From assembly GCF_020179755.1 (NCBI RefSeq), contig NZ_JAIUCY010000001.1, positions 62,001 through 126,000 of the forward strand: a stretch of DNA of 64,000 nt, read 5' to 3'. Below the pieces are notes generated by a model. That model ran no database searches and was not told the DNA's origin. It saw only the letters and a list, made by a program, of their open reading frames with translations. Positions within the stretch are counted from its first letter, which is position 1. Each line of letters opens with the position of its first letter. The position numbers and the translations under genes were made by a program. Shown here piece by piece: positions 54,901-57,960 of this stretch. The DNA comes from Herbaspirillum sp. alder98. Its GTDB lineage: Bacteria; Pseudomonadota; Gammaproteobacteria; Burkholderiales; Burkholderiaceae_D.

Positions 54901-55635
54901 TCAGGTCACGCCTGTCCATGCATGCTCGCGCAGATAAGTCCGCATCCGCGAAACTGCCTGCGCATGCAGCTGGCATACCCGCGACTCGGACACGCCCATC
55001 ACCGCGCCGATTTCCTTGAGATTCATTTCCTGCTCGTAGTACAGGCCCATCAGGATCTGCTCGCGCTCGGGCAAGGCCTTGATCGACTCCACCACGGCTT
55101 CGCGAAAACCGCCATTGATCAAGTTCTGCAGCGGGTCGTCCGAGTCGGAGGTTTGATGGCGATCCAGGAAATGCTCGTGACCGCCTTCGTCGTCGTGAAA
55201 ATCTTCGTAATAGATCAGTTGGTGACCACCACAATCACCCAGCAACGCCTGGTACTCGACCAGGCTCAGCTTCATGTGCTGCGCCACCTCGGTTTCTTGT
55301 GGAGGACGGCCCAGCTGTTGCAACAGCGCCTGCATGGCCTCTTCCACCTTGCGGGCATTCTGGCGGATGCTGCGCGGCAACCAGTCGCTGCTGCGCAACT
55401 CGTCTAGCATCGCACCGCGGATACGCTGCACGGCATAGGTCTCGAACTGCGCGCCATGCGTTTCTTCATAACGATTGACAGCATCAAGCAGCCCCATCAT
55501 GCCGGCCTGGATCAGATCATCCACCTCGACGCTGGGGGGCAACTTGGCTTTCATCTGATGCGCCAGTTTTTTCACCAACGGCGCATGCAGCTCAAGCATC
55601 TGGTTCTTGCCTGGTTTTCCCTTGACGTTATACAT
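54901..55635 (-). CDS. fliA: Flagellar sigma factor sigma-28
   Basis: This 244-residue sigma factor directs RNA polymerase to class 3 flagellar promoters such as those upstream of fliC, flgK and flgM. Region 2 includes VDDLIQAGMMGLLDAVNRYE and TYAVQRIRGAMLDELRSSDW. Region 4 includes MNLKEIGAVMGVSESRVCQL. The start at 55635 (MYNVKG) fits the family; the longer open frame upstream would overlap flhG. It lies 5 bases after flhG. Confidence 0.96.
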   Translation of the reverse strand: MYNVKGKPGKNQMLELHAPLVKKLAHQMKAKLPPSVEVDDLIQAGMMGLLDAVNRYEETHGAQFETYAVQRIRGAMLDELRSSDWLPRSIRQNARKVEEAMQALLQQLGRPPQETEVAQHMKLSLVEYQALLGDCGGHQLIYYEDFHDDEGGHEHFLDRHQTSDSDDPLQNLINGGFREAVVESIKALPEREQILMGLYYEQEMNLKEIGAVMGVSESRVCQLHAQAVSRMRTYLREHAWTGVT

Positions 55636-55640
55636 GCACG

Positions 55641-56483
55641 TCACACTCCAAGACTTGCACCATCGGTTGCCATGCCATAAGTGCTCTTGACCTCTTGCGG
55701 CATGGCAAAGCGCTTGGCCAATCGATGGAAGGCAATCGTCGCGCCCGCGAACGGAAACACATCCATGACCGCCCTCCCTTGCCCGCATGCACGACGGATA
55801 TGATCGTCGGCAGGTACCGAACCCAAAAACTTCAACTGTGCCGCCAGGTAACGGCTGGCCGCCTGCGCCATATTGGCGTAGACAGTCTGCGCTTCGGCTT
55901 CGGTGGCATCGTTGACGATAAGACTGAAAGGACGGCGACCGATCTTGTCCGACAAGCTCTTGAGCAGCACATAAGCCGCCTTGATCGAACTTGCCGTGGT
56001 GGAAACCTGGATCACGATTTCCCCCATTTCCATCGTCGGCACAGGCATCGACTGATCGTCCGCCAATACTCCGTTGACCAGCGTAATTTCGGCTTGTTCA
56101 ATCAGGCTGTCAAAGATTTCGGCCAGCCGTCCAGCTTGCGCACTGTTACTGCCGGGCACCGTACGACGCGCAATGCGCGCCATCGAAAAACCTTCAGGCA
56201 ACAACCGCACAGCTTCATGCATGCCGCGTTCCTTGCGCGCCACTTCCTGCAGCGTCGCCACATCGTGACGCAAGCCGATGCGCGTCAGCAGACCCGACGA
56301 AGCAACCCCGCCATCGATGAGCAGAACATTAGTGTTTCCCTGTGCCAGCGCGGCCGCCAGGTTGATGAGCATGGCGCTCTTTTCCTCTTCCCCCAGGACC
56401 GAGAAAAAGGTGAACAGCCGGGGCACCGGACGCTCGAGCATCCGTCGCAGCCCAGCCGCCTGATCGATGTCGTAACTAGCCAA
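55641..56483 (-). CDS. flhG: FlhG/MinD-like protein with degenerate nucleotide motifs
   Basis: This 280-residue protein follows flhF and has the length and layout of FlhG (FleN/YlxH), a MinD-type ATPase that controls flagellar number and FlhF activity. The deviant Walker A region reads FFSVLGEEEKSAMLINLAAA, so the glycines and first lysine of the usual KGGxGKT are missing. The switch I DxD region reads LLIDGGVASSG, and the switch II region reads LVNGVLADD. ATP binding or hydrolysis is therefore doubtful. It overlaps flhF by 8 bases and precedes fliA. Confidence 0.8.
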   Translation of the reverse strand: MASYDIDQAAGLRRMLERPVPRLFTFFSVLGEEEKSAMLINLAAALAQGNTNVLLIDGGVASSGLLTRIGLRHDVATLQEVARKERGMHEAVRLLPEGFSMARIARRTVPGSNSAQAGRLAEIFDSLIEQAEITLVNGVLADDQSMPVPTMEMGEIVIQVSTTASSIKAAYVLLKSLSDKIGRRPFSLIVNDATEAEAQTVYANMAQAASRYLAAQLKFLGSVPADDHIRRACGQGRAVMDVFPFAGATIAFHRLAKRFAMPQEVKSTYGMATDGASLGV

Positions 56484-57960
56484 GGATCACCTCGCGCAAG
56501 CCTTTGTCGTTCATCGACATGGCTGTGGGCCCTACCACTCCAGGCAACTCACCCTCCTGGAATTCGAACGGCGCCGTCTCGCGCTTTTGCTTGAAGGCAC
56601 GATCAGCCAGGTACAGCTTGTTGGCCACGTGAAGATCTTCGGGCACGCGCTGGCCGTTGGCCACATAGTGCAGGTTGAGCTTATGGCGAATCACCACATC
56701 GAGCACGTTGCCGATGGTAGCGGCTTCATCGAGCTTGGTGACGATGCAACCGGCCAGGCCCGAGCTCGAATAGGCATGCACCACTTCATTGAGGGTGCCG
56801 CCGGTGGCAGTCGCGTTGAGGCACAGCAGGCGCTTGATGTCGACGCCGGCGCCGGCCAGCATGGCATCCTGCTCGGCCACCATCTGGTCGCGCTGGCCGA
56901 CACCAGCGGTATCGATCAGCACGGTGTGCTTGCCCTTCAATTCTTCCAGCGCAATGCGCAGGTCGGTTTCGTCCTTGACCGAATGCACCATCACACCCAG
57001 GATCTTGCCGTAGATGCGCAACTGCTCGTAGCCGCCGATACGGTAGCCATCGGTGGTGATCAGCGCCAGCTTGCCCGAACCGTGGCGCATCACGCAGCGT
57101 GCCGCCAGCTTGGCGGTGGTGGTGGTCTTGCCCACACCGGTGGGGCCGACCAGCGCGAACACGCCGCCGTTCTCTAACAGTTCGCTTTCGTTAGCCAGCG
57201 TGTTCAGGTTGCGCGCCAACACCGACTTGACCCAGAACATGATGTCCTGCGACTTCGAGTTGGCCGGCAGGTTTTCGGTGATCAGGCGCGACAGGCTGGC
57301 CGAAAAGCCGGCCGCCAGCATCTCTTTCATCACTTGCGCCTTGATCGGCTCGCGCTTTTGCGTGCCGCCCCAGGAGATTTCGGCCAGTTGCGTCTCCAGC
57401 ACGCCGCGCATGGAGCGGATTTCGCTCATCACGTCAGACAGAATCTCGTCATAGTCCTTGCCTTCGAATTCGGGCAATGCCGAGCGCGGGCGATCGTCAC
57501 CTGCATCGCTCGCCTCATCGGCGCCGGCCTGGGCCGGACGCGCAGCGCTGCGGCTGCGCCAGACGCGGGCGTCGACCGCGACTTCCGGCTCTTCGGGGCG
57601 TGCGGCAGGACGACGGCTGGTTTGCGTCTGGTCCAGCAGCGGCGCGGCCTCGGAGCGCATCTGGCGCGATGGCTGCTGCGCCAGCGGCGACGACAGCAAC
57701 GCCGGGCGACGGGGACTGGGCGCCTGCGCTTGCGGCTGACCGGATTGCTGTTGCAGCGAGGCCGGTTGCGGGCGACCGGCAGCCTCGCGACCCGCGGTAG
57801 GCGCGACCAGCGTCGTCATATCCTCGTTGGCCATCGCCAGGATCTCGACGCCGTCGGGGATATTGCGATTGGAGAGGATGACCGCATCGGGTCCCAGCGC
57901 TTCACGTACCTGGCGCCACGCCTCACGGGACGAATTGGCGATAAATTTCTTCACGTTCAT
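56476..57960 (-). CDS. flhF: SRP-family GTPase FlhF
   Basis: This 494-residue protein helps place and count flagella. It begins MNVKKFIANSSREAWRQVRE. A long Arg/Pro/Gln-rich linker (about residues 60-170) follows, then NG domains with P-loop LVGPTGVGKTTTTAKLAARC, DGYRIGGYEQLRIYGKIL and the G3 motif DTAGVGQRD. The C-terminal part has TKLDEAATIGNVLDV. It overlaps flhA and flhG by a few bases, so it is co-translated with them. Confidence 0.94.
   Translation of the reverse strand: MNVKKFIANSSREAWRQVREALGPDAVILSNRNIPDGVEILAMANEDMTTLVAPTAGREAAGRPQPASLQQQSGQPQAQAPSPRRPALLSSPLAQQPSRQMRSEAAPLLDQTQTSRRPAARPEEPEVAVDARVWRSRSAARPAQAGADEASDAGDDRPRSALPEFEGKDYDEILSDVMSEIRSMRGVLETQLAEISWGGTQKREPIKAQVMKEMLAAGFSASLSRLITENLPANSKSQDIMFWVKSVLARNLNTLANESELLENGGVFALVGPTGVGKTTTTAKLAARCVMRHGSGKLALITTDGYRIGGYEQLRIYGKILGVMVHSVKDETDLRIALEELKGKHTVLIDTAGVGQRDQMVAEQDAMLAGAGVDIKRLLCLNATATGGTLNEVVHAYSSSGLAGCIVTKLDEAATIGNVLDVVIRHKLNLHYVANGQRVPEDLHVANKLYLADRAFKQKRETAPFEFQEGELPGVVGPTAMSMNDKGLREVILG

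Follow-up and report, generated by a model that had tools for sequence, protein, structure and literature searches.

An FlhG of Herbaspirillum without a canonical ATP site: a candidate nucleotide-independent activator of FlhF

In FlhG, the MinD-like regulator of flagellar number, ATP normally acts as a switch that controls flagellar place and number. The flhG gene of Herbaspirillum sp. alder98 raises the question of what remains of such a regulator when the residues of the switch have changed. The gene (55641..56483, minus strand; 280 residues from a TTG start) lies in the window analysed here, a stretch of 64,000 nucleotides from contig NZ_JAIUCY010000001.1, and encodes a Herbaspirillum-type FlhG without a canonical nucleotide site. 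It sits between flhF (56476..57960, minus strand), which codes for a 494-residue SRP-type GTPase with G1–G4 motifs intact, and fliA, the sigma-28 gene (54901..55635, minus strand). The last 8 nt of flhF overlap the start of flhG directly downstream (56476–56483), and the ATG of fliA follows the flhG stop by 5 nt, an arrangement that the earlier note on this DNA had described as retained synteny. The same note took the protein for a possible pseudo-ATPase that regulates FlhF or FliA by binding only, and implied that its lost motifs were a peculiarity of this gene.

The nucleotide site of the window protein

Pfam CbiA matches the window protein with an E-value of 8e-7, above the curated cut-off, and the NCBIfam minD_arch match falls below its own cut-off. 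Among solved structures, phmmer pairs it with FleN 8pb9 (E 6.8e-17) and FlhG 4rz2 (E 7.4e-10); together, the CbiA and FleN matches point to true homology, beyond chance. The 14 named loci found with the window FlhG are all titled Herbaspirillum, the best match, 98% identical, being that of Herbaspirillum sp. YR522. A structure predicted for the window protein together with these 14 relatives was unusable, with a mean pLDDT of 36.1 and a pTM of 0.29.

Alignment to canonical FlhG places residues 29–37, VLGEEEKSA, under GKGGVGKTN, so that V29-L-G-E-E-E-K-S36 (56376..56399, minus strand) stands in place of the Walker A motif GKGGVGKT. Independently of this alignment, the phmmer match to the solved FleN sets EKS under GKT. 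At the switch I position (56307..56315, minus strand) D57-G58-G59 aligns under DAD, and at the switch II position (56061..56075, minus strand) N137-G-V-L-A aligns under DTAAG. The replacement of KGGxGKT by LGEEEKS, of DAD by DGG and the degeneration of the DTGAG-type strand, all read earlier from the letters alone, are thereby borne out, with two refinements: the P-loop lysine slot still holds a lysine (K35), and the first switch I aspartate is still an aspartate (D57). What has been lost are the glycines, the signature lysine, the second switch I aspartate and the switch II aspartate. The protein thus shares the parent fold of the MinD/ParA deviant Walker A ATPases, but has neither KGGxGK[ST] with its signature lysine, nor the second switch I aspartate, nor DxxAG. 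On sequence grounds we class it as an FlhG orthologue and do not class it as an FlhG-type ATPase.

Searches of the same genome by protein, family and profile found no second FlhG. With profile A1 the window FlhG was itself the best match (E 8.2e-95, the window row being part of A1). Five other matching regions were read, and no DQAxxLR was seen in them; we take them to be MinD, ParA/Soj, an Mrp/ApbC-type protein, a tyrosine-kinase-like protein and another ParA-type protein.

Loss of the site across the order

We compared FlhG loci from the window's family, from the rest of its order and from an outgroup, the rest of the class. The family sample gave matches in 271 of 294 genomes and 91 loci; the order sample, reached via FlhF, gave matches in 135 of 200 genomes, with 89 stretches read besides our own; and the outgroup gave matches in 119 of 232 genomes, three of them from the order, with 49 stretches read. 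The surveyed genomes are no random draw of species. The order set of 171 sequences comprises the 91 of the window's family, which include 32 of its genus, and 80 from other families. Dropped before counting were second copies of genomes already included (L122, L131), a separate canonical system (L072), loci without an alignable FlhG frame (L146, L147, L179, L242, L257, L259) and, earlier, our own genome met again (L111).

KGGxGK[ST] is present in none of the 171 order FlhGs versus all 49 of the outgroup, and the same split (0/171 and 49/49) holds for the combination of GK[ST] with the second switch I aspartate and the switch II aspartate. All 49 outgroup proteins also carry the second switch I aspartate and the switch II aspartate with its glycine, and 35 have a strict DQAxxLR. 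None of the 171 order proteins has the three motifs complete; they have arrived at this state by different routes, and the loss is graded: GK[ST] persists in 20, the second switch I aspartate in 15, the switch II aspartate in 112 and DxxAG in 12. The 20 proteins with GK[ST] all belong to the 80 from other families, where KGGxGK[ST] is absent, the second switch I aspartate is kept in 5, the switch II aspartate in 59 and DQAxxLR in 79, and where GK[ST] never occurs with both aspartates. The window's family has GK[ST] in none of 91, the second switch I aspartate in 10, the switch II aspartate in 53 and DQAxxLR in 91; the corresponding counts for the 32 genus members are 0, 9 (as DGD), 0 and 32. 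Loss of the canonical Walker A motif is therefore order-wide and neither a read error nor a strain quirk, and the idea that this gene is peculiar falls away. A sequencing error is rejected, as all 32 aligned genus sequences lack both Walker A and the switch II aspartate. Since the loss is graded and not total, some relatives in the order may still bind ATP.

The sole intact Walker A met in the order belongs to L072, in a genome of the window's family (G042). There, a canonical KGGVGKT FlhG, with DQAxxLR degraded to MQAKTVK, lies beside a divergent FlhF (37% identity). A second weak match (G121:C22:29354-30064) occurs in a genome that also has a degenerate FlhG (L065). This looks like a second, acquired flagellar system.

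Among the 20 order members that keep GK[ST], the DAD position begins with DE (19) or DQ (one) instead of DA, and in none is the second switch I aspartate retained. From this we infer that hydrolysis was the earlier loss and that binding followed, on repeated occasions. The D60A variant of Vibrio FlhG has no ATPase activity and shows only a slight effect on function, according to the excerpted text of PMC7226244; P-loop mutants described in the same source lose function, so that an ATP-free FlhG must work differently. On a tree of FlhF (133 rows, quick method) the order and outgroup separate with full support, and 52 of 129 inner branches are open and long branches are noted; the label of GKT versus lost needs 8 changes on it. 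If regain of the P-loop is disallowed, the resolved tree calls for 21 losses, a figure that falls to a minimum of 10 once branches under 80 are collapsed.

The partner GTPase has kept its own site. Searches for the FlhF P-loop succeeded at 226 of 229 loci, 218 by a pattern requiring a P-loop and 8 more by a looser one, and key G2–G4 residues are conserved in the 218 compared (174 from the order, 44 from the outgroup). At the three remaining loci (L067, L068, L070) it was not found; in L070 it lies before the start of the locus, and we assume the same for the other two.

One reason for the loss could lie in another partner. Binding of FliM or FliY by FlhG is nucleotide-independent, and FlrA binds only the ATP dimer, as described in the excerpted texts of PMC11236974, PMC7226244 and PMC12327844. 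A FleQ-domain search of 61 order genomes gave no match above 33.0 bits (22.8 in our own genome), and FlhC was present in 47 of the 61, our own included; 43 of 49 outgroup genomes had a frame of at least 460 residues that scored 33.8 bits or more. With FlrA/FleQ, the ATP-dependent partner in polar gammaproteobacteria, not found and FlhC present, one reason to keep an ATP dimer would be gone, and loss of this ATP-dependent partner is a plausible cause of the loss of the site. It is an imperfect correlate: the FlhG ATP site is intact in six outgroup genomes that have no clear FleQ, and in two genomes tested from families f12 and f13, GKT is kept with no FlhC and only weak FleQ-domain matches.

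Retained regions and mini-FlhGs

The N-terminus, which the earlier note overlooked, carries an intact DQAxxLR helix, D7-Q8-A-A-G-L-R13 (56445..56465, minus strand). This motif marks the enhancer helix that is the published activator of the FlhF GTPase; its glutamine stimulates GTP hydrolysis by FlhF, functionally replacing the cytidine of SRP RNA (PMC12826062, excerpted text). In B. subtilis, FlhG Q8A resembles an flhG deletion (PMC12327844, likewise in excerpt), and with numbering from the TTG the window protein, too, has its glutamine at residue 8. The motif occurs in 170 of 171 order FlhGs and its glutamine in all 171; counted over 178 distinct order loci, 170 have DQAxxLR, and L161 has HQASGLQ. 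Conservation as a by-product of the overlap with flhF is rejected for the window, where the motif codons (56445–56465) lie outside the overlap (56476–56483); synonymous sites of the helix also vary within the genus (pS 0.49 vs pN 0.06). The retained helix and the intact GTPase motifs of FlhF lend support to the part of the pseudo-ATPase proposal that concerns FlhF.

At the opposite end the protein has changed. Its C-terminal tail (residues 260–280; 55644..55706, minus strand) has no amphipathic membrane helix of the HLEFFVERL type. The FF pair of that helix, written HLEFFVERL in L191, is present in 49 of 49 outgroup proteins versus 0 of 171 in the order. The columns of the helix are mostly gap in 88 of the 91 family sequences, and a looser hydrophobic/basic pattern survives there in 7 of the 80 sequences from outside the family, whose own 91 all lack it.

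A third region concerns the flagellar C-ring. Geobacillus FlhG needs Lys177, Arg207 and Phe215 to bind the C-ring protein FliY, according to the excerpted text of PMC12327844, where Arg207 is once printed Arg277 and the mutant is R207E. Mapped by alignment to 4rz2 with an offset of 8, these residues correspond to K175 (55959..55961, minus strand), N204 and Y212 of the window protein: the lysine is kept, arginine is replaced by asparagine and phenylalanine by tyrosine. Every one of the 171 order sequences has a basic residue (K or R) at the lysine position, and an aromatic residue stands at the Phe215 position in 154 of the 171 as well as in all 49 outgroup sequences. The Arg207 position is not kept, being asparagine in 88 of the 91 family sequences and mostly lysine in the outgroup (45/49). 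The genome's own MinD has a glycine at the lysine column, so the lysine looks specific to FlhG. By alignment to this one Geobacillus site, the C-ring-binding face appears to be largely kept.

Compared with the known FlhG/FleN/YlxH proteins (PDB 4rz2, 5j1j, 8pb9), the window FlhG therefore has in common the MinD-domain homology, the place after flhF, DQAxxLR and the C-ring lysine, but is without the canonical ATP site and the FF-type membrane helix. Some relatives are without the nucleotide-binding half altogether. At two loci (L158, L250) the gene after flhF measures just 106 residues, counted from DQA to its stop codon. In a search of 199 genomes of that order family, 120 had any match, most of them in full-length frames; eight loci were read (L260–L266 and L284), of which L284, a fragment without DQA, is not counted as a mini-FlhG. 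Forms of 83–107 residues from DQA to the stop are thereby found in seven genomes of two genera, G311, G420, G839, G900 and G872 in one and G798 and G740 in the other. All seven have the DQA helix, a short stretch that looks like a strand, an AYxxIKR motif and a segment running from (V/I)F to L(E/D)Y; none has a P-loop, switch I or switch II. With the pattern used, a fliA-like start was seen downstream at three of these loci (L264, L265, L266). In alignment A1, 23 rows including two mini forms, the invariant columns are the motif's D, Q, A, G, L and R, together with the lysine, two leucines and a proline. The mini-FlhG may be described as the activator helix joined to a putative C-ring segment.

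At a few loci the gene itself is altered or was not found. In L179 and L257 (order family f47) a frame stands at the place of flhG with its activator motif degraded to HQG. L259 has the motif as DQAASLR in a frame that breaks off early, and its flhG looks frame-broken. No flhG was found beside flhF in L146, L147 and L242, and in L242 fliA comes directly after flhF.

A nucleotide-independent FlhG and its alternatives

We consider it probable that the window protein is a genuine FlhG without the ATP switch, working as a nucleotide-independent, constitutive activator of FlhF and as a C-ring adaptor. FlhG would stay a nucleotide-free monomer. Gln8 would complete the active site of FlhF and trigger GTP hydrolysis, upon which FlhF would leave its active dimer, and the K175/Y212 face would bind a C-ring protein, FliM or FliN, bringing the trigger for FlhF to the nascent C-ring. 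FlhG would then be a constitutive, C-ring-coupled off-signal for FlhF in place of one cycled by ATP and membrane, freed of ATP-dependent jobs such as control of FleQ/FlrA. Pseudo-ATPase action by binding only, as first suggested, thus remains the best-supported reading as regards FlhF, and its FliA half has no support.

The wider claim, which we hold with a little less assurance and only just favour, is that FlhG throughout the order is now a nucleotide-independent adaptor that joins an FlhF-activating helix to a C-ring-binding segment. Its hydrolytic aspartate would have disappeared early and its ATP site on many later occasions, and in two genera the protein would have been cut to about 83–107 residues as the entire nucleotide-binding half went.

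It is possible, although we think it unlikely, that FlhG serves as the activator of the FlhF GTPase and nothing else, the remainder being a folded carrier in which the C-ring face is kept for the sake of the fold. DQAxxLR is indeed the most conserved feature, and the residue at the Arg207 position has been replaced by asparagine. Mini-FlhG keeps the stretch that runs from AYxxIK through L(E/D)Y, for which a bare activator peptide would have no need, and the genome's own MinD does without the C-ring lysine.

Somewhat less likely still is continued ligand binding, in which the altered acidic-Lys-small loop would have a novel mode of binding a nucleotide or some other anionic ligand and the protein would act as a sensor. 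The lysine slot is kept in 80 of the 91 family sequences, and an acidic-Lys-(Ser/Gly/Asn/Gln) consensus is found in 72 of the 91 by the pattern used. Regional pN/pS over 28 genus sequences is low for the Walker A segment (0.14) and higher at switch I (0.39) and switch II (0.37); the activator helix stands at 0.12, the RYL region at 0.06 and the AYxxxK helix at 0.19. By these values the original switches have relaxed, more than the activator and the C-ring face have, and the altered loop may have acquired a new role. Against a ligand stand the joint loss of glycines, signature lysine, second switch I aspartate and switch II in the window protein, the unrelated replacements in other families and the absence of the whole region in seven genomes.

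That the gene is decaying, FlhG being a vestige held by its place in the operon and on its way out, seems very doubtful. Loci such as L146, L147 and L242 and the frame-broken-looking copy in L259 would fit such a course, and the selection data largely refute it for this gene. Median NG86 dN/dS of FlhG in two genus clades is 0.093 (153 pairs) and 0.069 (45 pairs), compared with 0.041 and 0.021 for FlhF-NG in the same clades; these values mark the window flhG as under purifying selection and reject a pseudogene. None of the 32 aligned genus sequences has a stop inside the match, and DQAxxLR is near-invariant across the 171.

We know of no FliA-binding feature of FlhG. Direct regulation of FliA is the least credible alternative, for beyond the fliA start 5 nt downstream of flhG there is no evidence past gene order, and the abstract of PMC6424431 gives P. 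putida the same order with FleN, flhA-flhF-fleN-fliA.

The preferred reading, a nucleotide-independent activator and adaptor, has parallels elsewhere. In the Ffh–FtsY pair SRP RNA is a co-catalyst, and by analogy the FlhG glutamine plays the part of its cytidine for FlhF (PMC12826062, excerpted text); FlhG differs in being a protein and not an RNA, and in mini-FlhG this protein counterpart would be very small. The receiver-GGDEF region of BcsE is likewise a degenerate enzyme domain used as an adaptor, its catalytic motifs lost and its binding surfaces kept, although in another fold and system (PMC7439463, excerpted text). Among the matches listed in a search of open-licence literature, titles and abstract openings held none on loss of the FlhG ATP site in this order; PMC7064773 counts Burkholderia and Bordetella among FlhF carriers, and its excerpted text leaves the motif loss unmentioned.

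If the proposal is right, control of FlhF needs neither ATP cycling nor shuttling of FlhG to the membrane, and the smallest FlhG, tethered to the C-ring, would be a protein that takes the place of SRP RNA. With the FlhF activator retained, no canonical ATP site and natural mini-FlhGs that lack the ATP half, the order offers a ready-made separation of functions that predicts which activities are essential, and the mini-FlhGs are small natural constructs. Annotation of these flhG genes as ATPases may mislead. The two jobs of FlhG seem already to have been separated by nature.

The outgroup shows the reverse split. Of its 49 FlhGs, 14 keep the full ATP site without a strict DQAxxLR (L203, L213, L215, L219, L224, L225, L229, L231 and L234–L239), four of them by the mild change to DQAxGMR or DQAxGIR.
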